Positions 52,037-64,000 of a stretch of 64,000 nt of DNA are shown one piece after another. Both the position numbers and the translations under genes were made by a program. The stretch comes from Microtetraspora niveoalba (GTDB lineage: Bacteria > Actinomycetota > Actinomycetes > Streptosporangiales > Streptosporangiaceae). The stretch covers positions 249,139 to 313,138 of the forward strand of contig NZ_BBYM01000003.1 in assembly GCF_001570405.1 (NCBI RefSeq), read 5' to 3'. A model generated the notes under the pieces. That model saw only the letters and a list, made by a program, of their open reading frames with translations. It had not been told where the DNA came from and did not search any database. Every line of letters begins with the position of its first letter. Position 1 is the stretch's first letter.

Positions 52037-53965
52037 TTGGCCGGGTCGGCACGGCGTGGGACGGCCCGTGAGGGGGCGTTCCGGGCATGGCTGCTGCACG
52101 GCCTACGGCACGAGGACCTGCGGGCACTGGGGCCGCACGGCCCCCGCTCACCCGAGAAGCAGTACTCCTGGTGGCGCGTCATGTGCCTCACCGGAGTGGA
52201 CTACTTCTCCAGCCTCGGCTACCAGCCGGGCATCGCCGCGCTGGCGGCCGGCAGCCTCTCTCCGATCGCCACCATCCTGCTCGTCCTGCTGACGCTGCTG
52301 GGCGCGCTGCCCGTCTATCGCCGGGTGGCCGTCGAGAGCCCGTACGGCCAGGGCTCGATCGCGATGCTGGAAGGGCTCGCGCCGCGCTGGTGGGGCAAGC
52401 TGATCGTGCTGGTCCTGCTCGGCTTCGCGGCCACCGACTTCGTCATCACGATCACGCTCTCGGCGGCCGACGCCACCGCGCACATCCTGGAGAACCCCTT
52501 CGTCCCGCGCGCGTTCTCGGGGCAGCACGTCGCGGTCACGCTGTTCCTGCTCGCCCTGCTCTCCGCCGTGTTCCTGATGGGCTTCACCGAGGCCATCGGC
52601 ATCGCCGTGCTGCTGGTCGGCGTCTATCTGGCCCTGAACGCCGTCGTGGTCGTGACGGCGATCCTGCACATCCTGGCGCACCCGGACCTGTTCGGCGGCT
52701 GGCAGCGGGCGCTCACCGCGCGGCACGCCAGTCCTCTGGGACTGCTCGCGGTGTCGGTGCTGGTGATGCCCAGGCTGGCGCTCGGCATGTCGGGGTTCGA
52801 GACCGGTGTGGCCGTGATGCCCCTGATCAAGGGCGATCTGGCGGGACGCATCGCGGGGGCCAGGCGGTTGCTGACCACCGCCGCGCTGATCATGAGTGTG
52901 TTCCTGATCTGCAGCAGCTTCGCCACGATCATGTTGATCCCGGAGAAGGAGTTCCAGGCGGGGGGCAAGGCCAACGGCCGGGCGCTGGCCTACCTGGCGC
53001 ACAACTACCTCGGCAACGGCTTCGGCACGCTGTACGACATCAGCACGATCACCATCCTGTGGTTCGCCGGGGCGTCCGCGATGGCCGGCCTGATCAACCT
53101 CGTGCCCCGCTACCTGCCCAGGTACGGCATGGCGCCCGACTGGACCGCCGCCGTGCGCCCGCTGGTCCTCGTGTTCACCGTCGTCGCGGTCGCCATCACG
53201 CTCGTCTTCGACGCCAACGTGGACGCCCAGGGAGGCGCGTACGCCACCGGCGTGCTGGTGCTGTTCCTGTCCGCGGGCGTCGCGGTCACCGTGGACGCCC
53301 ACCGGGCGGGCCGCCGGTGGCGGACCTGGATCTTCGGCCTGATCACGCTGGTCCTCGCGTACACGCTGGTGGACAACATCCGCGAGCGTCCCGAAGGTGT
53401 GAAGATCGCGTCGCTGTTCATCGCGGCGATCGTCGTGATGTCGCTGATCTCGCGGGCCACGCGGTCCACCGAGCTGCGGGTGTCCGACGTGCGCCTCGAC
53501 ACGCTCGCCCAGGAGTTCATCTCCGAGTCCAGCGGCGAGATCCACCTGATCGCCAACGACCCCCGCCGCCGGGACCAGGCGGAGTACAACGCCAAGCTCC
53601 GCGAGCAGTGGTACACGCACCGGCTGCGCAGTGCGGAGCCGGTCATGTTCGTCGAGGTCACCGTGCTCGACGCGTCGCAGTTCCAGAGCGAGCTGCGGGT
53701 CAAGGGGGACGTGCGGTACGGCCACCGGATCCTCCGCGTCGAGAGCGCGACGGTGGCGAACGCCCTGGCGGCGCTGCTGCTGTACATCCGGGACCGCACC
53801 GGCGAGGTGCCGAACATCTACTTCCAATGGGGCGAGGGGAACCCGATCCTCGCGATGCTGCGCTATCTGGTCTTCGGAGGCGGTGACGTGCCGGGGATGA
53901 CCCGGGAGGTGCTGCGCGAGGCCGAACCGGATCCGGCGCGCCGCCCCCACGTCCACGTGGGGTGA
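52037..53965 (+). CDS. APC family permease, probable potassium or amino acid transporter
   Basis: Up to 642 residues with about twelve transmembrane helices (50-480) and a soluble C-terminal domain of some 150 residues. The [21 protein letters not shown] segment and [16 protein letters not shown] are its most distinctive parts. The start is uncertain: TTG at 52037 keeps the EKQYSWWRV lead-in, while the first ATG (52181) would cut into helix 1. It lies directly upstream of kdpD-kdpE, which suggests potassium uptake similar in principle to KimA (an APC-type K+ importer). The substrate is inferred. Confidence 0.78.
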
Positions 53966-54322
53966 CGGCGTGCCGGGACCGTAGAAATATCATCAACATT
54001 CCGGAGAAATGCGTATATAAAGCATCAAGATCGACGAAATGCCGCAAATCTCACGATTTCCTGATAGGGGCAGTCGGCGGAGCCTGACGGGGTGATGCGC
54101 CGGGGCCGCGGGCCCCTCCCGTGATCGGCCCGCCGACCACCCGGCGCGTACGGCCCGGCCCGGCCGGGCACGACCTGGACGGGCATGACCTGGACGGGCA
54201 TGACCTGGACGGGCATGACCTGGACGAGCACGACCCGGCCGAGCACGGCCTCTTGGGGGCGGACCGGCGGCCGACCTGCCGCGGCCTAACCTGGTCGTGG
54301 ACGGCACGAGGAGATGAGGCAC
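53966..54322. other. 357-bp region upstream of kdpD with AT-rich island
   Basis: Bases 53985-54065 are unusually AT-rich for this genome (including GCGTATATAAAGC) and probably hold the kdpDE promoter. A 15-base tandem repeat follows at 54169-54243. A GTG-started frame through the repeats (54121) has no family resemblance. Confidence 0.6.
54169..54243. repeat. 15-bp tandem repeats upstream of kdpD
   Basis: Five consecutive units based on CATGACCTGGACGGG; units 2 and 3 are identical and the others differ at one to four positions. They begin 154 bases before the kdpD start codon. Such minisatellites can change copy number by slippage. Confidence 0.85.
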
Positions 54323-56998
54323 ATGGCGCGTGGGCGGCTCCGGATCTATCTCGGTGCCGCTCCCGGAGTCGGAAAGACCTTCGCGATGCTCGGCGAGGGC
54401 CGCAGGGCGCTGGAGCGGGGCCGGGACGTCGTCGTCGGGCTCGTCGAGACCCACGGCCGCGCCCGTACGGCCGAGCTGCTCGACGGCATGGAGATCGTCC
54501 CCAGGAATGCCCTCGTCTACCGGGGGATGACCGTCGCCGAGCTCGACGTGGACGCCGTCATCGCCCGCGACCCCCGCGTGGTCCTGGTGGACGAGCTCGC
54601 GCACACCAACGTGCCGGGCTCGCGCAACGTCAAACGCTGGCAGGACATCGACGAGATCCTCGACGCCGGGATCGACGTCGTCTCGACCGTCAACATCCAG
54701 CACCTGGAGTCGCTCAACGACGTCGTCCAGGAGATCACGGGGGTGCCCCAGCGCGAGACCGTCCCCGACGAGGTCGTACGGCGGGCCGACCAGATCGAGC
54801 TCGTCGACATGTCGCCCGAGGCGCTGCGCCGCAGGATGGCGCACGGCAACGTCTACCCGCCGGAGAAGGTCGACGCCGCGCTGTCGAACTACTTCCGCGT
54901 CGGCAACCTGACCGCCCTGCGCGAGCTGGCCCTGCTCTGGGTCGCCGGAAAGGTCGACGAGCAGCTCGACCGCTACCGCGCCGAGCACGGCATCGCCGGG
55001 ACGTGGGAGGCCCGCGAACGCGTCGTGGTCGCCCTGACCGGCGGCCCCGAAGGCGACACCCTGGTGCGCCGGGCCACCCGCATCGCCGACAGGAGCAAGG
55101 GCGCCGACCTGCTCGCCGTACACGTCACGAGGGCCGACGGGCTGGCCGGGCAGGACCCGGCGAGCCTGGCCAGGCAGCGCGCGCTGGTCGAGAGCGTCGG
55201 CGGCACCTACCACCAGGTGGTCGGCGACGACATCCCGCGCGCGCTGCTCGACTTCGCGCGCGGCGTCAACGCCACCCAGCTCGTGCTCGGCGCGTCCCGG
55301 CGCGGGCGGCTGGCGCAGGTGTTCTCGCGCGGCGTCGGCGTCACCACCACCGCCATGTCCGGCTCCATCGACGTCCACATGGTGACGCACGAGCAGATCA
55401 GCAAGGGCAGGACCAGGAGCTCCCGATCGAGGGCCGCGCTCACCCGCAGGCGACGGCTGGCCGGCTGGGGGCTCGCCGGGCTCGGGATCCCCGGGCTGAC
55501 CGCACTGCTGGTCGCCTTCCGCGACACGATCACCCTTCCGAGCGAGATCCTGCTCTTCCTGCTCATGGTGGTCGTCGTGGCGCTCGTCGGCGGCATGTGG
55601 CCGGCCATCACCGCGGCCGTGGTCGGCTTCGCCCTGCTCAACTGGTACTTCACGCCGCCCCTCTACACGCTGACCATCTACAGCCCGGAGAACCTGTTCG
55701 CGCTGGCGATCTACGTGCTGGTCGCGGTCATGGTCAGCGCCGTCGTCGACGTGGCGGCCCGCCGTACGAGAGAGGCGGCCAGGGCGAGCGCGGACGCCGA
55801 GGTGCTCTCGACGCTCGCCGGGCATGTGCTGCGCGGCGAGGCGGCCCTGCCGTCCCTGCTCGGCCGGCTCAGGGAGACCTTCGGCCTGACCTCGGTCACC
55901 CTCCTCGAACGGCGCGGCGATCGGCAGCCGGCCGCGGGAGACCAGTCCGATCCGGACGCCTGGCGCATCGTCGCCACCACCGGAGGCCCGCCGTGCGCCT
56001 GCCCCGGTACGGCCGACACCGACGTGGTCATCGACGACGACCTGGTGCTCACGGCGAGCGGCCGGCTGCTGGACGCGTCCGACCGCAGGGTCCTGGAGGC
56101 GTTCGCGGCGGAGGCCGCCATCGCGCTCCGGCAGGAGCGGCTGGAGGAGGAGGCGGAGCAGGCCAGGCCGCTCGCCGAGGCGGACAAGATGCGCACCGCC
56201 CTGCTCGCCGCCGTCAGCCACGACCTGCGCACCCCGCTCGCCTCCGCCAGGGCGGCCGTGGAGAGCCTGCGCAACACCGAGATCGACTGGACGGAGGAGG
56301 ACCGCGCCGAACTTCTGGCCACCGCCGACGAGTCGCTGCTCAAACTGGACCGGCTGGTGGCGAACCTGCTCGACATGAGCCGTCTCCAGGCGGGGGCGCT
56401 CGGGCTCGCGATGCAGCCGACCGCCCTGGAGGACGTCGTGCCCCGGGCGATCGACGATCTCGGCCCCCTCTGGGACCGTATCGATGGGGACATCTCGGTC
56501 GAACTTCCCGAGATCCAGGCCGATCCCGCCCTGCTGGAACGAGTACTGGCCAATTTGATGGCCAACGCCGTCCGCTACAGCCCCCCGGAGGAGAAGGTGC
56601 TCGTCACCGCCAGCGGACACGGCGGCCACGTGGAGATCAGAGTCGTCGATCGCGGCCCCGGCATCCCCCCGGAGGCCCATGATCGGGTCTTTCTGCCCTT
56701 CCAGCGCCTCGGCGACCGGGACAACCATACGGGCGTCGGGCTCGGGCTGGCCCTCTCGCGCGGCCTGACCGAGGCCATGGGTGGCACCCTGGTGCCTGAG
56801 GAGACGCCCGGAGGAGGACTCACCATGACCGTCACCCTGCCCATCTCGTGGGACACGGCCGCCGAGTACACCCCGGGCCGCGACCGCGACGCCCCCTTCA
56901 GCGCCGACGGTGACACGCCCGCCGAGTACACCGCGGGCCGCGACCGCGACGCCTCCTTCAGCGCGGACGGCGACACGCCCGCCGCGGAGCGCCGATGA
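54323..56998 (+). CDS. kdpD: sensor histidine kinase KdpD
   Basis: An 891-residue kinase sensing low potassium and turgor. The N-terminal KdpD domain has Walker A GAAPGVGKT (10-18) and VLVDELAHTN. A Usp-like domain (about 245-365), known in other bacteria to bind c-di-AMP, follows. Four transmembrane helices, GAF, HisKA with H633 (VSHDLRTPLASA) and HATPase_c complete it. The ATG at 54323 is nine bases after GAGGAG; an ATG at 54314 abuts that site. The C-terminus ends in two 20-residue repeats of a charged tail. kdpE overlaps its stop by four bases. Confidence 0.94.
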   Translation: MARGRLRIYLGAAPGVGKTFAMLGEGRRALERGRDVVVGLVETHGRARTAELLDGMEIVPRNALVYRGMTVAELDVDAVIARDPRVVLVDELAHTNVPGSRNVKRWQDIDEILDAGIDVVSTVNIQHLESLNDVVQEITGVPQRETVPDEVVRRADQIELVDMSPEALRRRMAHGNVYPPEKVDAALSNYFRVGNLTALRELALLWVAGKVDEQLDRYRAEHGIAGTWEARERVVVALTGGPEGDTLVRRATRIADRSKGADLLAVHVTRADGLAGQDPASLARQRALVESVGGTYHQVVGDDIPRALLDFARGVNATQLVLGASRRGRLAQVFSRGVGVTTTAMSGSIDVHMVTHEQISKGRTRSSRSRAALTRRRRLAGWGLAGLGIPGLTALLVAFRDTITLPSEILLFLLMVVVVALVGGMWPAITAAVVGFALLNWYFTPPLYTLTIYSPENLFALAIYVLVAVMVSAVVDVAARRTREAARASADAEVLSTLAGHVLRGEAALPSLLGRLRETFGLTSVTLLERRGDRQPAAGDQSDPDAWRIVATTGGPPCACPGTADTDVVIDDDLVLTASGRLLDASDRRVLEAFAAEAAIALRQERLEEEAEQARPLAEADKMRTALLAAVSHDLRTPLASARAAVESLRNTEIDWTEEDRAELLATADESLLKLDRLVANLLDMSRLQAGALGLAMQPTALEDVVPRAIDDLGPLWDRIDGDISVELPEIQADPALLERVLANLMANAVRYSPPEEKVLVTASGHGGHVEIRVVDRGPGIPPEAHDRVFLPFQRLGDRDNHTGVGLGLALSRGLTEAMGGTLVPEETPGGGLTMTVTLPISWDTAAEYTPGRDRDAPFSADGDTPAEYTAGRDRDASFSADGDTPAAERR
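56861..56980 (+). repeat. 60-bp tandem duplication in the 3' end of kdpD
   Basis: Two in-frame copies (56861-56920, 56921-56980), each beginning GCCGAGTACACC and differing at only a few bases. They encode two 20-residue units, the first starting AEYTPGRDRDAPFSADGDTP. This tail lies beyond the kinase core. Confidence 0.9.
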
Positions 56999-57663
56999 CC
57001 AAGATCCTGATCGTCGACGACGAACCGCAGATCCTTCGGGCGCTGCGCATCAACTTCGCCGCCCGGCACTACGAGGTGGCCGTGGCGGCCGACGGCGGCT
57101 CCGCGCTCCGCCAGGCCGCCGACTGGCATCCCGATCTCGTCGTACTCGACCTGGGCCTGCCCGACATCGAGGGCATCGACGTGATCCACGGCCTGCGCGG
57201 GTGGAGCCAGGTGCCGATCATCGTGCTCACCGGCCGCGCCGGCAGCGCCGACGCGGTGAGCGCCCTCGACGCGGGAGCCGACGACTACGTCACCAAACCG
57301 TTCGGCCTGGACGAGCTGCTCGCCCGGGTACGCGCCGCCACCCGCCGCGCCGCCGTACACCAGGCCGAGGCCCCCGTGGTGCGGATCGGCGACCATACGG
57401 TCGACCTCGCCGACAAGACGATCTCCGGCGGCGTACGGCTCACCCCGACGGAATGGCACCTGCTGGAGATCCTGCTGCGCAACCCCGAGAAGCTGGTCAG
57501 CCAGCGCCAGATGCTCACCGAGGTGTGGGGGGCCACATACGTGACGGCGACGCACTATCTCCGGCAGTACATGGCGCAGTTGCGCCGCAAACTGGAGCGG
57601 GACCCGGCCCACCCCGTGCATCTGATCACCGAGCCCGGGATGGGCTACCGCTTCCGCCCCTGA
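56995..57663 (+). CDS. kdpE: response regulator KdpE
   Basis: A 222-residue OmpR-type regulator partnered with KdpD. The receiver has D52 in VVLDLGLPD and the switch VTKPFGLDEL. The winged helix carries LTPTEWHLLEILLRNPEKLV and TATHYLRQYMAQLRRKLE, typical of KdpE. The ATG overlaps the kdpD stop (ATGA). Its classical target operon kdpFABC is not in the window; the neighbouring APC permease is a candidate target. Confidence 0.95.
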   Translation: MTKILIVDDEPQILRALRINFAARHYEVAVAADGGSALRQAADWHPDLVVLDLGLPDIEGIDVIHGLRGWSQVPIIVLTGRAGSADAVSALDAGADDYVTKPFGLDELLARVRAATRRAAVHQAEAPVVRIGDHTVDLADKTISGGVRLTPTEWHLLEILLRNPEKLVSQRQMLTEVWGATYVTATHYLRQYMAQLRRKLERDPAHPVHLITEPGMGYRFRP

Positions 57664-57780
57664 ATGGGGTGCCGGTGCGTGGCCGGGGACGTCCGAGGGG
57701 ACGGTCGGCCGGGCTCGGCCGGACCTCGCCGCGTGCTGTCCTCGGCGGATCCCCTGCCTCGCCCGGCCGGGCCGTACGAG

Positions 57781-58512
57781 TCAGGCCGGGACGGCCTCGA
57801 TGTCGGCGACGATGACGCTGATGTTGTCCGGGCCGCCCGCCTCGTTGGCCAGCTCGATGAACTGGCGCACCGCTTCCTCGCGATCGCCGACCGTGGTGAG
57901 CACGCGGTGCAGCGTCTCCGGATCGAGCACCGCGGTCAGGCCGTCCGAGCAGAGCAGATAGCGGTCACCGGGGTGGGCCCCGCGGAGCGAGAGGTCGGGG
58001 TCGGCCAGACCGCTCGTCTCCACCGCCCGCAACAAGAGGGACCGGTTGGGATGCTTGGCCGCCTGATCAGGGCTCATCCGGCCGTCGTCCACCAGTGACT
58101 GGACAAGCGTGTGATCGCGCGTGATCTGGTACAGGGCGCCGTCACGCAGCATGTACGCCCGCGAGTCGCCCACGTGCGCCAGCGCGAAGCGCGAGCCGTC
58201 CCACAGCATCGCGGTGATGGTGGTGCCCATCCGCTCAAGGGCCGGGTCGCGGACCGCCAGGTCTCGTAACCTGCGGCTGGCCTCCTGCACCGCGTCATCG
58301 AGGGCGGCGACCGCGTCCTCGGGGAACGGCCCCTCTTCCAGGAGGGCGAGGGCGGTTATCGCCGCGGCGCTGGCCACCTCTCCGTTACCGTGACCACCCA
58401 TCCCGTCCGCGATGGCGAGCAGTCTCTCGCCGGCGTGAAACGAGTCCTCGTTCTTCTTCCGGGAACGGCCGACGTCGGATCCCGCGGCGTAGCGAAGTCG
58501 GTTGTGCGTCAT
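57781..58512 (-). CDS. PP2C-family serine/threonine protein phosphatase, cytosolic
   Basis: A 243-residue metal-dependent phosphatase. The motifs are in order: NEDSF, LLAIADGMGGHGNGE, the TTITAML strand, ALAHVGDSRAYMLRDG, YLLCSDGLT and GGPDNISVIV; all metal-binding Asp residues are present. Unlike PstP it has no transmembrane or extracellular part. It is divergent from a DNA methyltransferase gene (57 bases apart) whose downstream neighbour is a Ser/Thr kinase, so the phosphatase and kinase may act on the methyltransferase or a shared target. Confidence 0.9.
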   Translation of the reverse strand: MTHNRLRYAAGSDVGRSRKKNEDSFHAGERLLAIADGMGGHGNGEVASAAAITALALLEEGPFPEDAVAALDDAVQEASRRLRDLAVRDPALERMGTTITAMLWDGSRFALAHVGDSRAYMLRDGALYQITRDHTLVQSLVDDGRMSPDQAAKHPNRSLLLRAVETSGLADPDLSLRGAHPGDRYLLCSDGLTAVLDPETLHRVLTTVGDREEAVRQFIELANEAGGPDNISVIVADIEAVPA

Positions 58513-58532
58513 GCTTTTGAGTAAAGCACTGG

Positions 58533-58564
58533 TTGAATGACTTCACAAGCTCCAGCTAAGCTGG
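58533..58564 (+). promoter_or_regulatory. promoter and palindrome before the DNA methyltransferase gene
   Basis: TTGAAT (58533-58538), an 18-base spacer and TAAGCT (58557-58562) form a promoter whose start point would fall at about the ATG (58570), giving a leaderless mRNA. CCAGCT-A-AGCTGG (58552-58564) is a perfect dyad overlapping the -10, a likely operator. Confidence 0.55.
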
Positions 58565-58569
58565 CCGTC

Positions 58570-60879
58570 ATGAGCCACGACGCCACAGTGAACGCGGGCG
58601 ACATCGCCCGCCTAGCCGACGTCGGGAGGGCCGCGGTGAGCAACTGGCGCCGTCGGTATGACGACTTTCCGCAGCCGGTCGGGGGCACCGCGTCCAGCCC
58701 GCTGTTCTCCCTGCCCGAAATCGAGGAGTGGCTGCGCAAGAACGGCAAATCCTTCGAGGTGTCGTTGGGCGACCGCGTCTGGCAGGGGCTCAGGGCCGCC
58801 GTGGACGATCTCCGGCTCGGCGAGCTGGCGGGCTTCGCGGGGGCGTTCCTTCTCTACGTGCTCCGCGACCCCGACGGCTGGCGTCGGATCGCCGCCGCCC
58901 CCGATCTCGTCGTACGGCTTCCGCGCGAGGTGGCGTCGGCGACGCCCGATCTGCCGGTCCGGCCGGGAACGGTCCTGGAAGACGCGCAACTGATCCGCTG
59001 GATCGCCGACCTGTCCGCGCTCCACGGGCCGGCCACCGCGTTCGAGTTCGTGTGCGAGCGCTATGTCGAGGCGCACACCCGGCGGCTCGCGGTCACGCGG
59101 GGCGAGGTGGCGGCGCTGATGGGGCGGCTCGCGCGGCAGTCCTGCCCCGCGGGAGGCGTGGTCCTCGATCCCGCCGTAGGTGTGGGAACGCTCCTGCTGT
59201 CCGTCTCCGACACCGCCGTCCTCGACGGCGGCCCGCCCGGTGTCCCGCCGGCACGGGATGCCGGCGTTCCCGACGGCGTGCCCGGCGTTCCGCCGGTACG
59301 CCTGCTCGGCCAGGAGATCAACGAGACGTCCGCTCTGCTCGCCTCGCTGCGGCTCCTGCTGCGCGGCGCGGACGCGCGCGTCGTGGCGGGAGACTCGCTG
59401 CGGCACGACGGCTTCGTGGGCCGGCGAGCGGACGTCGTGCTGTGCGACCCGCCGTTCAACGAGCGGGCGTGGGGCCACGAGGAGCTGATCGGCGATCCGC
59501 GCTGGGACTACGGCGTGCCGCCTCGCGGCGAGCCGGAGCTGGCCTGGGTCCAGCACTGCCTCGCGCACGCGCGTCCGGGAGGCCTGGTCGCGATCCTGAT
59601 GCCCGCCGCCGCCGCCGCGCGGCGTTCCGGCCGGCGGATCCGCGCCAACCTGCTGCGTGCCGGCGCCTTGCGCGCCGTCATCACCCTGTCCGCTGCCGGA
59701 CCGGATCTCTGGCTGCTGCGCCGGCCCCATGCCGGGGAGCCTTCCCCGGCATCGATCCTGCTCGCCGACGCGTCCGACGACCTCTCGATCGTGGAGTCGG
59801 CATGGCGGGCCTACCTCGCCGACACCGCCCACGGCGGCACGGCACGCGCCGAAGCGGAGGCCGATGTTCCTGTCCGGCCCGGAGCCGCCGGGTCGGAGCG
59901 GAGGGGATCGGGGCGCACGGGGTCGAAGCGCACAGGGTCGGGGCGCACGGGGTTGGAGCGCACCGGGCCGGTGGCCGCCGCCGACAGCGGGTCCGCGCCC
60001 TCGGTGCCCGCCGGGACACCCGGAGAAGGGCCCGGGCCGTACGTGCCGGAGGGGGCCGGGGCGTGGCGGCCGGCCGACGCGCTCGGCCCCGCGCGTGGCG
60101 GCGCCGGAGCGGACGCCGATGACGGCCGGGTCGAGAGGGCGGGCGGCGAGCTGCCGCGCTCCGCCCGGATCGTGCGGATCATCGACCTGCTCGACGACGA
60201 GGTGGACGTGAGCCCGGCCCGGCACGTCTCCTCACGAAGCGACCCTCATCGTTATCCCGCCGCCGGACGACGGCTCCGGGACCTCGCCGAGTCGCTGGCC
60301 GAGGCCGCCGGAGCGCTGCCCGAGCTGGAGGTGCTGTCCGGCCGATCCGGCCTCCCCACGACCGCTATCACCGATCTGGTCAAAGCCGGCATGGTGACGA
60401 TCCGGCATTCGGTGCTGAAGGCGGCCGAAAGGGGGGATCTCGGCGTGCTGACCGCCGACGACCTGGAGCGGGGCGGGCCGCCGTCCGGTCGCACCGCCAA
60501 CGTGCCGGGCCTCGTGACGGTGGCGGCCGGAGACGTGGTGGCCTCCCCGACCGCCGTGCGCGTGATCGAACAGTCGGGCGCCGTGCTCGGCCCGCAGCTC
60601 TCGCTGTATCGGGTGGACCGCTCTCGGCTCGACGCGGACTTCCTCGCCGGCTTCCTCCGGTACGCGGCCGTCAGGGTCCATCCCGGAGCCAGCCGCGTCG
60701 ACGTGCGCCGGGCCCGCCTCCCGCGGCTCCCACTCACGGAGCAGCAGGCGTACGGCGCGGCCTTCCGGCGGCTCGCCGCTCTTGAGGACGCGATCAGGGA
60801 AGCGGCCGAGGCGGGCGAGGCGCTGATCCGGCTCGGGTTGGAGGGGCTGGTTGACGGCCGTCTACGACCGCGCGCGTGA
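58570..60879 (+). CDS. N6-adenine DNA methyltransferase with N-terminal HTH and C-terminal specificity-like region
   Basis: A 769-residue protein. Residues 8-60 look like a DNA-binding HTH (AGDIARLADVGRAAVSNWRR). A HsdM-like methyltransferase core follows, with SAM motif LDPAVGVGTLLL at about 199-210 and catalytic DPPF (D293-F296; N/D/S-PP-Y/F is allowed in this class). A disordered insert with 15-base repeats encoding RTGS-type units lies near 440-470. The C-terminal 200 residues resemble an HsdS target-recognition unit. It is an all-in-one type I-like modification enzyme with no restriction subunit nearby. ATG 58570 is probably leaderless. The kinase gene follows after 38 bases. Confidence 0.85.
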   Translation: MSHDATVNAGDIARLADVGRAAVSNWRRRYDDFPQPVGGTASSPLFSLPEIEEWLRKNGKSFEVSLGDRVWQGLRAAVDDLRLGELAGFAGAFLLYVLRDPDGWRRIAAAPDLVVRLPREVASATPDLPVRPGTVLEDAQLIRWIADLSALHGPATAFEFVCERYVEAHTRRLAVTRGEVAALMGRLARQSCPAGGVVLDPAVGVGTLLLSVSDTAVLDGGPPGVPPARDAGVPDGVPGVPPVRLLGQEINETSALLASLRLLLRGADARVVAGDSLRHDGFVGRRADVVLCDPPFNERAWGHEELIGDPRWDYGVPPRGEPELAWVQHCLAHARPGGLVAILMPAAAAARRSGRRIRANLLRAGALRAVITLSAAGPDLWLLRRPHAGEPSPASILLADASDDLSIVESAWRAYLADTAHGGTARAEAEADVPVRPGAAGSERRGSGRTGSKRTGSGRTGLERTGPVAAADSGSAPSVPAGTPGEGPGPYVPEGAGAWRPADALGPARGGAGADADDGRVERAGGELPRSARIVRIIDLLDDEVDVSPARHVSSRSDPHRYPAAGRRLRDLAESLAEAAGALPELEVLSGRSGLPTTAITDLVKAGMVTIRHSVLKAAERGDLGVLTADDLERGGPPSGRTANVPGLVTVAAGDVVASPTAVRVIEQSGAVLGPQLSLYRVDRSRLDADFLAGFLRYAAVRVHPGASRVDVRRARLPRLPLTEQQAYGAAFRRLAALEDAIREAAEAGEALIRLGLEGLVDGRLRPRA

Positions 60880-60917
60880 AGGTGTAGCTTTTCCCGAAAG
60901 GTCGACGGGAGGGGCGG

Positions 60918-61808
60918 ATGGTCATCGGCGACCGGTATGAGCTGGACGACCTTCCCCTCGGCCAGGGCGGCATGGGGGCCGTCTACGGCGGCCACGACAG
61001 GCGCCTCGACCGCAAGGTGGCGGTGAAGTTCCTCCGCTTCCCCGGCGGTCACGACGAGGAGCTGGAGCGCCGGTTCATCCGCGAGGCACGCATTCTCGCG
61101 CGGCTGGAGCATCCGGGCGCGCCCGTCCTCTATGACTTCGGCACGTATGATCAGCGCCTCTTCCAGGTGATGCAGTTCATCGAGGGCGTCACGGTCGCCG
61201 ACCTGGTCAGCGAGCACGGGCCGCTTCCTGTCCCGTGGGCCGCCGCGATCGCCGCCCAGGCGTGCGCGGTGCTGACGGCGGCGCACGCGCTGTCCATCTG
61301 CCACCGTGACCTCAAGCCGACGAACCTCATGCTCTGCCCCGACGGCAGCGTCAAGGTCCTCGACTTCGGCCTGGCGATGGTGCGCGAGTCGGACGGCGCC
61401 CAGTTCACCCGTGTCGGCCAGATCCTGGGCACTCCCGCGTACATGTCGCCCGAGCAGATCCAGCGCGGTGTCGCCGGGCCGAAGAGCGATCTCTACGCTC
61501 TCGGTTGCGTCCTGCACGAGATGCTGACCGGGAAACCGCTGTTCACCGGCCCGACCGAGTACGCCGTGTTCGACAAGCAGGTGAAGGAACAGCCGCCGTC
61601 GGTGCCCGACGTCCCGGCCGAGCTCGACCGGCTGATCGCCGAACTGCTGGAGAAGCAGCCGGAGAACCGCCCCGCCGATGCCGCCACGCTGTACGAGCGA
61701 CTGCAGCCTTTCGCCGTTGACCTGCCCATGCTGCCGGGCTTCCTGCACTCGCCGTCCGTGCCGAGCCCCGGCCGCATGTACGCCCGCATGGTAGGCCGGG
61801 TTCTCTGA
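60918..61808 (+). CDS. serine/threonine protein kinase, cytosolic, kinase domain only
   Basis: A 296-residue Hanks-type kinase with all key motifs: GQGGMGAVYGG loop, K37 in VAVKFL, HRDLKPTN with D130, DFG with D148, and GTPAYMSPEQ. The C-terminal 25 residues are a short Pro/Ser/Arg-rich tail. There is no transmembrane helix or PASTA region, so it is soluble, unlike PknB. The ATG follows GGGAGGGG. It is cotranscribed with the DNA methyltransferase and complements the PP2C gene of the same locus. Related kinases may carry a longer C-terminus, so a truncation is possible. Confidence 0.9.
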   Translation: MVIGDRYELDDLPLGQGGMGAVYGGHDRRLDRKVAVKFLRFPGGHDEELERRFIREARILARLEHPGAPVLYDFGTYDQRLFQVMQFIEGVTVADLVSEHGPLPVPWAAAIAAQACAVLTAAHALSICHRDLKPTNLMLCPDGSVKVLDFGLAMVRESDGAQFTRVGQILGTPAYMSPEQIQRGVAGPKSDLYALGCVLHEMLTGKPLFTGPTEYAVFDKQVKEQPPSVPDVPAELDRLIAELLEKQPENRPADAATLYERLQPFAVDLPMLPGFLHSPSVPSPGRMYARMVGRVL

Positions 61809-62202
61809 CCACTCCCTCGGCCCGCTCGCGGCCGTCTTGGGTGCACAACCGGCCGTCCCGTCCCTGCGGCGGTGCGGTCCTGAGTCGGGCGGCCTCGTTC
61901 CCTTACGTCCCCAGTCGCCGTGAGGTCGCGTATCGACCGCGAGGGCTGCGCGCGGCGGTACGCGGGTGGCGGCGTCGGAGCGGCGCCGCGAACCGCGGGG
62001 CTCGACGCGGCCGCCCGTCGTGGTCCCCCGGCGTGACGTAGGAACCCGGCGGCGAAGCGCCCTTTTCGGTCAGACCCCCCACTACCTGATCCCAACCCGC
62101 GGGTATCTCCCGTCACCTGATCCGCCCCATCCTTATCTCCCGCCACCTGATCTCAACCCGCGGGACTTCGCTGGGGGTCTCCAGGGGGAGTGGGTCTCCC
62201 GA
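61809..62202. other. 394-bp intergenic region with short direct repeats
   Basis: Between the kinase gene and the end of the DUF222/HNH gene. The left 230 bases show nothing clear. The right part holds three copies of ACCTGATC within longer direct repeats, listed separately. Confidence 0.6.
62084..62164. repeat. direct repeats downstream of DUF222/HNH gene
   Basis: ACCTGATCCCAACCCGCGGG (62084-62103) recurs at 62145-62164 with one change. TATCTCCCG-T/C-CACCTGATC occurs at 62104-62122 and 62134-62152. The core ACCTGATC thus occurs three times at about 30-base steps. Too few and too short for CRISPR; could be a protein-binding array. Confidence 0.75.
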
Positions 62203-64000
62203 TCAGTTGTGGGTGGTCGGGCGTGGGCCGAGGTAGGCGAAGGCCCAGCGGTCCTTTCCGGCGCGGTAGAGGCGGTAGCGCTCTGGGTGCCGGTAGCGGT
62301 CGCGGTTGTGGAACTGGCAGGTGGGTGCGAGTTTGTCCAGGTCGGTCGTGCCGCCGTCGCTCCAGTTGTCGATGTGGTCGGTCTGGCACAGGTGGGCGGG
62401 CAGCGGGCAGTCGTCGACGACGCATGTGGTGTAGCGGGCGAGGATGGCTCGGCGTTGTGCTGGGATAGCGCGGCGGACTTTGCGGCCCATGTCCAGGATC
62501 TGGCTGTCGGCGTTCATGACGAGACGGGCCAGGGTGGAGGTGTGGGCCAGGCGGTGGATGTCGGGGGCCGGGAGGAACTGGCCGGTGGCCAGCAGCAGTC
62601 CGGGGAGTCTGCGGCCGGACAGCAGCCCCGCGGGCAGCGCCCACGCCACCGGCGGTTCATCGGCTGGAGGCTGGTCTGTCAGCGAGTCCGCGTCTGCTGA
62701 TGCTTTGAGGGGTGCTTCGCCTCCTTCGGGCGCGGCGAAGCGCCCCGCGCCCGGCTCTGGCTTGGCTGACGGTGAGGTGCCCGGCGCTGCTGGGGCCGGT
62801 GGCGGCGTGTTCGGCAGCGGCTCCGCTGACGCTGATGCGCCTGGCGCTGCTGCGGCCGGTGATGGCGTGTTCGGCAGCGGCTCCGCTGATGGTGAGATGC
62901 CCGGCGTGGGTGCGCCCGGTGGTGGCGTGTTCGGCAGCGGTTCCGCCGACCGTGACGTGCTTGATGGTGGTGGCGTGTCCGAGGGGCGTTCGGGCGACGG
63001 CGGCATGTCGTCGGGTGACGGGGACTGCGCGGCGGCGGGTTGCCCCACGGCTGTGCCGACGGGACGGGAGTCACCGGATGAGGGCATCGCGGATGCACGC
63101 CTGTCTCGGGCTGCTCCTGTCGTTGCCCGCTCCGGGGACCGTGTCTCGGCCGTCTTCCCGGTCGGGTGCGGGCGGCCTGCGCGCGGGGCAGCGGAGGCGG
63201 TGCCGGTCGCGTTCGGGGTGGCGGTGCTGGTCGTGTGTTGGGTGGCTTCCTGGGGGCCGACAGGCCGGTTGGCCGGATTTGGGCGGTCTGGGCGAGTGGT
63301 GGAGGTGGTGCCGGTCCCGTTCGTGGCGGCGGTGCTGGTCGAGTGCGGGGCGGGCGTCGGTGGGGGAACCGGCTGCGCGGCCTCCCCGCCGGCAGGGCGC
63401 GAGGGGGCCGAGCGTGGACGGGGCGACTGGGAAGCCGCAGGAGCCTCCGAAGGAGAAGCGGTCGTGGTGGCGGATTCGGGGCCGGTGGAGCGTGCGGCGG
63501 CCCTGTTCTCTACACCGGGCTCGGGATCGGGGGCGGGATCGGCTGGGTGTGAGACAGGGCAGTCCCCTACCCCTACCCCAGGCCCGGGCCCGGGGTCGGG
63601 AGCGGTGGGGCGTGCGGTCGGCCGGTCGCCCTCAGCAGGGACAGGGTCATCCGGCAGCGAACCGGCGTTCACCAACACGAGAAGCTCGGTGGCAACCTGC
63701 TGCTCCAGCAAAGCGATCAACACATCCGCGTTACGCACCCGAAGCGGCCGATCATCCCCCACAGCCCTGGGCTTGGCATACGCATCCAGCAACGCCCGCA
63801 ACCGCGCCCCCGCCTCACGCGGAAGACGGAACTCCCCCTCAAGCCCACCCGAGGAACTCTCCCTGACCAACAAAAACCGCCGCCGATAATCCGCGTCCGC
63901 CTCATCCTCAGCGCCATCGGGATTCAGCACCGCATGCAGATAACGACCAGCACGAGCCACCTCAGCAGGAGTCGCCCGATCCGCCAGCGACACCAAAATC
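62203..64000 (-). CDS. DUF222/HNH endonuclease (13E12-repeat type), 5' end beyond window
   Basis: At least 598 residues, continuing past the right edge. The part seen starts inside DUF222 (LADRATPAEVARAGRYLHAV, then LPREAGARLRALLDAYAKPR). It passes through a linker of about 330 residues very rich in Pro, Ser, Thr and Ala and ends in an HNH nuclease domain: C-x4-C, QTDHIDNWSDGGTTDLDKL and CQFHN. The family includes the REP13E12 proteins of mycobacteria, which host prophage integration. The linker contains 20-residue repeats (SAEPLPNTPPP type). The linker is far longer than usual. Confidence 0.88.
   Translation of the reverse strand, partial: ILVSLADRATPAEVARAGRYLHAVLNPDGAEDEADADYRRRFLLVRESSSGGLEGEFRLPREAGARLRALLDAYAKPRAVGDDRPLRVRNADVLIALLEQQVATELLVLVNAGSLPDDPVPAEGDRPTARPTAPDPGPGPGVGVGDCPVSHPADPAPDPEPGVENRAAARSTGPESATTTASPSEAPAASQSPRPRSAPSRPAGGEAAQPVPPPTPAPHSTSTAATNGTGTTSTTRPDRPNPANRPVGPQEATQHTTSTATPNATGTASAAPRAGRPHPTGKTAETRSPERATTGAARDRRASAMPSSGDSRPVGTAVGQPAAAQSPSPDDMPPSPERPSDTPPPSSTSRSAEPLPNTPPPGAPTPGISPSAEPLPNTPSPAAAAPGASASAEPLPNTPPPAPAAPGTSPSAKPEPGAGRFAAPEGGEAPLKASADADSLTDQPPADEPPVAWALPAGLLSGRRLPGLLLATGQFLPAPDIHRLAHTSTLARLVMNADSQILDMGRKVRRAIPAQRRAILARYTTCVVDDCPLPAHLCQTDHIDNWSDGGTTDLDKLAPTCQFHNRDRYRHPERYRLYRAGKDRWAFAYLGPRPTTHN
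62761..62955 (-). repeat. 60-bp tandem repeats in the DUF222/HNH linker
   Basis: Three full 60-base units (62761-62820, 62821-62880, 62881-62940), each ending GGCGTGTTCGGCAGCGG, and a partial fourth. They encode 20-residue Pro-rich units on the minus strand. Confidence 0.85.

Follow-up and report, generated by a model that had tools for sequence, protein, structure and literature searches.

A conserved phosphatase-methyltransferase-kinase locus with a shared intergenic element in Streptosporangiaceae

Introduction

Genes of protein kinases adjoin genes of DNA methyltransferases (MTases) in several bacterial defence systems. Here we analyse a locus of Microtetraspora niveoalba in which the genes of a PP2C-type phosphatase, an N6-adenine MTase and a Hanks-type kinase (together called the trio) are grouped around a 31-bp intergenic element. 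The locus occupies positions 57781-61808 of a stretch of 64,000 nucleotides of contig NZ_BBYM01000003.1; this whole stretch is referred to as the window. An initial annotation of the window had proposed that the three genes form a phosphorylation-controlled modification or defence system.

Several described systems resemble the trio in part. CamA of C. difficile and CcrM of Caulobacter are N6-adenine MTases that have no restriction partner and are core in their taxon, as is the trio MTase; they are not known to have a dedicated kinase or phosphatase or a fused helix-turn-helix (HTH) domain. The Pgl system of actinomycetes (BREX type 2) pairs an N6-adenine MTase (PglX) with a Hanks kinase (PglW), just as the trio does. 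In Pgl both proteins are needed (PMC4365076), and the authors concluded that PglW signals, probably by phosphorylation, and thereby activates PglX. The kinase-PP2C-vWA triads of Kaur et al. 2020 (PMC7159879) link a kinase gene to a PP2C gene; unlike these, the trio includes an HTH-MTase and no vWA gene. A term search of a preprint on the YprA helicase (PMC12458937) did not find the word kinase. The open-licence papers searched, with the largest result sets covered in part, yielded none on such a trio, thus within this literature the locus appears not to have been studied before.

By the features tested the trio is not a BREX/Pgl, DISARM, MADS (methylation-associated defence system) or type I restriction-modification (R-M) system. 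By analogy, its mode of action would come closest to that of a solitary regulatory methyltransferase equipped with its own phospho-switch.

Results

The three genes and the element are conserved as a unit

The genes and the element lie in the window as follows.

57781-58512, minus strand: PP2C-type Ser/Thr phosphatase, soluble, 243 amino acids (Pfam PP2C, 3.2e-13)
58520-58550, no strand: element AGTAAA-N-CAYTGGTTGA-N5-TTCACAAGC, 31 bp, between the PP2C and MTase genes; proposed shared operator
58570-60879, plus strand: MTase with HTH, HsdM-like N6-adenine methyltransferase and C-terminal specificity-like domain, 769 amino acids from ATG 58570 (Pfam, PADLOC, structural model)
60918-61808, plus strand: Hanks-type Ser/Thr kinase, soluble, 296 amino acids (Pfam Pkinase, 4.5e-47)

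All three frames are open and intact. The open reading frame (ORF) of the MTase is open from 58537 to its end at 60879 on the plus strand; the start is probably ATG 58570 rather than 58537, thus the gap between the divergent PP2C and MTase genes is 57 bases. The MTase and kinase genes are 38 bases apart. Both spacings agree with those of the initial annotation.

A pattern scan of 84,980 genomes yielded at least 216 confirmed relatives of the MTase, of which the best 80, a set leaning to close kin, were analysed. Both partner genes stood alongside the MTase gene in 64 of the 80 loci, and PP2C was beside it in 73. As in the window, PP2C was divergent and a kinase (identity 70% or higher) co-directional with the MTase in 60 loci, and four others had the same kinase with a co-directional PP2C. 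An adjacent kinase was missing from nine PP2C-bearing loci (PP2C co-directional in six, divergent in three), five loci had a more distant kinase and no PP2C, and two had neither. When the neighbours of 81 loci were clustered without a reference, the three largest families were the MTase (81), the kinase (68) and PP2C (66), followed by a family found in 20 loci; tblastn revealed further kinases that the simple gene caller had overlooked. No PADLOC match was obtained with representatives of the ten commonest outer neighbour families.

In a tree of 132 MTase rows (quick method, SH-aLRT support only, midpoint root; MTase ORFs under 450 amino acids, MTases below 150 summed bits and five of the six Nonomuraea rows omitted) the PP2C-associated MTases formed one clade of 93 rows with an SH-aLRT support of 100. 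Of its rows 81 had PP2C and kinase, ten PP2C only and two the kinase only, and none of the 39 rows outside the clade had a PP2C. The closest relatives of the window MTase in the tree were those of Microtetraspora. Full trios, counted with MTase ORFs of at least 450 amino acids, numbered 122 (119 distinct MTases), and the 119 divergent loci corresponded to 118 distinct MTases, a few genomes being included twice. Co-location in relatives, which had been set beforehand as the test that could refute the proposal, was thus found, and the functional linkage of the three genes, already suspected in the initial annotation, is strongly supported: the trio recurs far beyond chance, and the three genes and the element are conserved as a unit.

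A single element lies between the divergent promoters

The element had been missed by the initial annotation. Its core, TGGTTGA-N5-TTCACAA, occurred in one copy per locus in all 119 divergent loci, those of Amycolatopsis included. In the window the element was the only match at up to 2 mismatches (0.03 expected). An 18-base form was present without mismatch, in one copy each, in 50 of 130 genomes of the family. In 22 genera all sampled members had this exact form, two or more members having been sampled in 12 of these genera, and its occurrence in the family sample was all-or-none by genus; a 23rd genus (genomes G442 and G470) had a variant with one extra base. By comparison of coordinates, 48 of the 50 exact elements lay within 3.5 kb of a trio-type kinase gene, and the remaining two (G015 and G430) adjoined PP2C and MTase genes with no trio-type kinase alongside.

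Elsewhere in these genomes we found 11 matches, or 12 with one in G470 that has no assigned place, all with 1-2 mismatches, versus 14 for the reversed control. The only match with one mismatch was upstream of a second, paralogous MTase gene of Microbispora amethystogenes (L070/L248), which has no PP2C. A regulon under the element was therefore rejected. In L248 the second, element-bearing MTase gene is divergent from a gene of a 1,105-amino-acid protein (L248:4681-7998, minus strand) without PADLOC match, and is followed by a kinase-like start of about 30 residues.

Two sets of promoter-like boxes, recognized by eye, lie in the intergenic region.

58520-58548, minus strand: boxes TTGTGA, 17 nt, TTTACT and 7 nt to the start codon of PP2C; leaderless-like
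58533-58562, plus strand: boxes TTGAAT, 18 nt, TAAGCT and 7 nt to ATG 58570 of the MTase

The element overlaps the boxes of PP2C and, in the window, the -35 box of the MTase. In 114 of the 119 divergent loci a TAnnnT box precedes a start codon by 6-8 nt, versus 4% of mononucleotide shuffles. Because of this spacing (7 nt for PP2C, 6-8 nt on the MTase side) both transcripts look leaderless. A strict scan did not detect consensus sigma-70 promoters, and a structured RNA was rejected since positions 57700-61900 had no Rfam match.

In the co-directional loci (Actinomadura type), where PP2C is reversed, all 13 had TTGTGAA no more than 60 bases from PP2C, and 11 of them had TTGA-N5-TTCAC just ahead of the MTase; the promoters, once separated, thus each retained their half of the element or a copy of their own. 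TTGA-N5-TTCAC also precedes four of 60 other MTases of the family that have no PP2C (0.11 expected from the rest of those loci). The site thus tracks the MTase family, not PP2C or the kinase, and this is best explained if the MTase itself is the binder; judged from these sequence patterns, we infer that the MTase binds the element.

The locus is core in Nonomuraea

Our censuses of Nonomuraea and of the family rest on the kinase, and MTase and PP2C were checked in 54 Nonomuraea regions. Each of the 54 Nonomuraea genomes had exactly one trio-type kinase. The MTase gene was adjacent to it in 52, and in the other two (N. dietziae and G605) PP2C, element and MTase lay within 8 kb of the displaced kinase. 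PP2C was seen in 48 regions, four of the six misses being at contig ends. With one copy in 54 of 54 genomes the locus is core in this genus. DrmA of DISARM, the single control defence gene used, was found in only 13 of the same 54 genomes. A locus that is kept once throughout Nonomuraea while DrmA comes and goes does not behave like a defence locus. The trio MTase shares with solitary MTases that it is core in a taxon, where it stands beside or near the kinase in all 54 genomes, and that there is no cognate restriction enzyme at the locus. In its own 8.47-Mb genome the MTase query had one match at E<=0.001.

In a sample of 394 genomes of the class, 16 genomes of one family, among them that of the window, had a kinase with at least 82% identity; the next-best kinases had at most 61% identity and were mostly within longer ORFs. 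In the family sample 123 of 297 genomes, representing 22 of 68 genera, had a trio-type kinase (E<=1e-120), and G555 had a second match at 67%.

Architecture of the trio proteins

The following segments were distinguished in the MTase and the kinase (MTase residues are numbered from 58537).

58576-58746, plus strand: N-terminal HTH of the MTase, residues about 14-70 (PADLOC mad1, 6.6e-8 at 15-70; helices in the model)
59092-59691, plus strand: methyltransferase core, residues 186-385 (Pfam N6_Mtase, 1.9e-25; motif I DPAxGxG, motif IV DPPF)
60163-60864, plus strand: C-terminal domain similar to HsdS or a target recognition domain, residues about 543-776 (ordered in the model; no separate family match)
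61713-61805, plus strand: C-terminal tail of the kinase, LPxLPGFL...PSPGRMYAR, proposed docking tail (no variation in the LPGFL and MY columns among 122 trio kinases)

In an AlphaFold model of the MTase (47 sequences, mean pLDDT 82.8) the HTH at the N-terminus is followed by the HsdM-like core, by a linker of 87 disordered residues (447-533, pLDDT below 50) and by an ordered, HsdS-like C-terminal domain. This order of domains agrees with the all-in-one MTase of the initial annotation, and the identities assigned there to the three genes were borne out by Pfam, PADLOC and NCBIfam. The best structural match was the M subunit of PacII, along with other type I M subunits, followed by M.TaqI and CamA, thus the HsdM fold, the N6_Mtase match and motifs I and IV make it a type I-like N6-adenine MTase.

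The kinase model (41 sequences, mean pLDDT 87.9) was PknB-like with an ordered helix in the C-terminal tail. K37, HRD and DFG were invariant in all 122 trio kinases. The phosphatase is Stp1/IreP-like, just under the NCBIfam cut-off (NF033484, 219.6 versus 230 bits), and among the trio relatives GDSR was present in 122 and SDG in 121 of 122. In line with the claim that neither the kinase nor the phosphatase has a membrane anchor, Kyte-Doolittle profiles with 19-residue windows revealed no clear membrane helix in any of the three proteins. The customary cut-off is 1.6, and the highest values were 1.14 (PP2C), 1.66 (MTase) and 1.68 (kinase); the latter two are borderline, and the most hydrophobic windows map to motif I of the MTase core and to a helix within the kinase fold.

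Among the three MTase regions the HTH was the best conserved, whichever identity band was considered and for trio and non-trio MTases alike. Within it S35 (in VSNW), as well as T51, is nearly invariant, which makes these two residues candidate phosphorylation sites. An especially conserved C-terminal domain would have pointed to a fixed target; this idea was rejected, since at like core identity the domain was no better conserved in trio than in non-trio MTases.

Motifs I and IV of the MTase

Residues D211, P212, G215 and G217 of motif I and the PP of motif IV were present in all 122 trio MTases. Active amino-methyltransferases are known to carry D, N or S as the first residue of motif IV; among the trio MTases 108 have D at this place and six have N, the other eight having H (seven) or E (one). 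Histidine occurred in at least three separate branches of the tree (Actinomadura macra L099; L104; the L067/L068/L238/L239/L150 group, of which L068 is from a Microtetraspora sp.), and also in L143, which is outside the 122 trios. The N. dietziae MTase had GLATL at motif I. An in-frame stop divides the trio MTase of L193 (G472) into fragments of 58 and 537 residues; kinase, PP2C and element of this locus are intact.

Of 39 non-trio MTases, 15 began motif IV with N, seven with D and three with S; in the other 14 (L113, L119, L120, L121, L124, L125, L129, L131, L132, L133, L135, L139, L140, L141) the first residue was H, E, V, A or G, which hints at inactive or altered methyltransferases. Several of these 14 are in defence loci.

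Comparison with defence systems and cousin loci

The initial annotation had argued that the locus is not plain Pgl, and this is strongly supported. Unlike Pgl/BREX, the trio has a PP2C, is core and single-copy in Nonomuraea, and has no consistent partner beyond its three genes, hence no conserved PglY or PglZ. We did not meet a PglZ-domain protein at trio loci, in the sense that no outer family exceeded 20 of the 81 loci and the ten commonest had no PADLOC match, the rarer neighbours not being domain-searched. The only PF08665 (PglZ) match of the genome is on contig C25, the window being on C3. The kinase is a single domain of 296 amino acids and not of PglW type (NF033442, 54 bits versus a cut-off of 990).

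Homologues of three MADS proteins are recognizable in the trio, namely mad1 (HTH, 6.6e-8), mad2 (MTase, 3.5e-16, residues 181-415) and mad6 (kinase, 3e-64). Compared with MADS as represented by its PADLOC and NCBIfam models, the trio differs in the fusion of HTH and MTase and in having no further consistent partner gene, and its kinase stays below the curated MAD6 cut-off (NF047741, 133.9 versus 460 bits). DrmA/DrmB clusters, which mark DISARM, were present in the 81-locus set only at the PP2C-less loci L077 and L097. HsdR was not found at the window locus; the genome has a single HSDR_N match, on contig C24, where a type I MTase of its own (MTase_I, 4.9e-251) adjoins it.

A kinase gene was located within 600 bases in 18 of 60 non-trio MTases, and domain scans found DrmA/DrmB, HsdR, HmaA and pPIWI-RE proteins at these cousin loci (one example of each partner family was scanned, other members were assigned by sequence cluster). 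Cousin loci of the DISARM (L113), type I R-M (L110) and Hma (L131) kinds have the same MTase and kinase families as the trio, with the MTase upstream of the kinase. They differ from it in that DrmA/B, HsdR or HmaA is present, the kinase is longer (about 480-2,090 amino acids where paired), and there is no PP2C within 600 bases and no strict element. The LPGFL/MY tail of the kinase is recognizable, in diverged form, in cousins such as L097.

Five loci (L113, L116, L135, L077 and L097) were DISARM-type and combine an HTH-MTase with a long Hanks kinase; DrmA-DrmB was identified by domain scan in L113 and by cluster in the other four. DISARM is not known to include a kinase. Six others (L085, L098, L110, L125, L134 and L140) were type I R-M-like operons in which HTH-MTase, HsdR and Hanks kinase form a single array (HsdR by domain scan in L110, by cluster in the others), the kinase of L125, L134 and L140 lying beyond HsdR. 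The MTases of L120, L121 and L139 are beside kinase proteins of about 2,070-2,090 amino acids, and that of L136 is beside a kinase of 470; pPIWI-RE island genes are present as well in L120, where they were domain-scanned, and in L136. A DUF6119 protein (L114:10241-12016) belongs to a cluster that recurs next to or near MTases of the family in L114, L115, L119, L123, L140, L145 and L148.

Neighbouring genes in the window

Upstream of the trio, positions 52037-57663 encode a 642-residue transporter-like protein without Pfam match, perhaps KimA-like and a potassium importer, followed by KdpD and a KdpE-like response regulator. A DUF222 protein with a long Pro/Ser-rich insert (62203-63996, minus strand) is convergent with the kinase. 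None of the five upstream neighbours scanned had a convincing defence match; the response regulator (56995-57663) matched SduA weakly (1.3e-6 over residues 2-68), which we read as its receiver domain.

Discussion

We consider it on balance probable that the trio is a vertically kept regulatory module of Streptosporangiaceae, which was domesticated from a defence cassette of an HTH-HsdM-type MTase and a Hanks kinase and now serves as an autoregulated, phosphorylation-controlled DNA-binding MTase. The genes are intact, they share a single control element, the locus is a single-copy core in Nonomuraea, and the active-site motifs of kinase and phosphatase are preserved. In the mechanism that we propose, the HTH or the C-terminal specificity-like domain of the MTase would contact the element, and the MTase would control two divergent, apparently leaderless transcripts, PP2C in one direction and MTase-kinase in the other. 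Since these are fired from one control site, the kinase:phosphatase ratio would be under the control of the module itself, and divergent expression would couple this ratio to the occupancy of the element by the MTase. The kinase, perhaps recruited by its conserved tail, would phosphorylate the MTase, and PP2C would reverse this, setting DNA binding or methylation. Switching of the MTase by phosphorylation is plausible from the composition of the locus. The output would be expression of the module and N6-methyladenine at few or many host sites, not restriction of foreign DNA.

Several observations weigh against this interpretation. The kinase has been lost in six of the ten Actinomadura loci among the best 80, and no trio-type kinase was found at E<=1e-90 in those six genomes. 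It is also missing in L036 and L043 (both metagenome assemblies), L143/G015 and L247/G430. The kinase-less loci keep PP2C and MTase and, outside Actinomadura, the element, thus PP2C and MTase can be retained without this kinase; perhaps they are served by other kinases. In L247, from a 4.2-Mb genome, PP2C, element and MTase are followed, in place of the kinase, only by a 114-residue ORF without PADLOC match. The strict element is absent from all 13 co-directional loci, and three of the four non-trio loci with TTGA-N5-TTCAC belong to one clade, thus they represent fewer than four independent events. The C-terminal domain shows no extra conservation in trio MTases, above the genus level the distribution is patchy, and related MTase-kinase pairs do occupy defence loci. 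Phosphorylation, DNA binding and methylation by the trio proteins are all putative activities.

The trio could alternatively be a defence or modification system, in which the MTase marks host DNA, infection triggers the kinase, and either an effector encoded elsewhere or the MTase itself attenuates the phage, as proposed for PglW-PglX. The two-component requirement of Pgl, the DrmA/DrmB, HsdR, HmaA and pPIWI-RE genes beside the cousin pairs, and the matches of MTase and kinase to PADLOC defence models (besides mad2 and mad6, MTase_I with 1.6e-83 and PD-T4-6 with 1.9e-98) speak for it. We nevertheless find this rather unlikely, and do not favour the defence label of the initial annotation: no fourth gene accompanies the trio consistently and neither the ten commonest outer families nor the five upstream window neighbours scanned had a convincing defence match, the HsdR and PglZ matches of the genome are on other contigs (HsdR with its own type I MTase nearby), the element is all-or-none by genus, and the constancy of the locus in Nonomuraea contrasts with the patchiness of DrmA. 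That the three genes are independently useful, and stay together by chance or by weak operon selection, is very improbable and largely refuted already. Loss of the kinase from genomes that keep PP2C and MTase would fit it, but the trio persists while its outer neighbours vary between genera, PP2C flips orientation yet stays adjacent, and the element is shared.

It is a serious possibility, at somewhat less than even chance, that the trio MTase is a solitary epigenetic regulator of the CamA/CcrM type, with methylation at a conserved host motif as the output and kinase and PP2C tuning its activity; this overlaps with the regulatory module favoured above, and the two are not mutually exclusive. 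The presence of motif I in all 122 trio MTases and of D or N at motif IV in 114, CamA among the structural matches, the core status in Nonomuraea and the lack of a cognate restriction gene at the locus agree with it. The repeated HPPF and the single EPPF at motif IV, the GLATL of N. dietziae, the in-frame stop of L193 and the ordinary conservation of the specificity-like domain do not. The H/E changes in eight of 122 MTases suggest that some may have lost activity although their loci keep HTH and PP2C and, where divergent, also the element, thus DNA binding may matter more than methylation. Taken further, they suggest that methylation is optional and that the MTase scaffold was turned into a phosphorylation-switched, S-adenosylmethionine-dependent or even catalysis-independent transcription switch, whose output is binding of one operator and perhaps a few other sites, with the kinase and phosphatase of the module expressed divergently from this operator. 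We regard this as unlikely; the 114 MTases with D or N, that of the window included, look active.

The position of the distant MTase-kinase cousins in defence loci makes a defence ancestry of the regulatory module likely. The change would then have started from a defence cassette, with loss of the effectors and a single gain of a phosphatase: the trio keeps the MTase-kinase pair without the nucleases and helicases of its cousins, and adds a phosphatase and a fixed control site. As a small and tractable three-gene system it may help to show if protein phosphorylation governs DNA methylation in bacteria, and it may serve as a case for how a defence cassette becomes a regulator.

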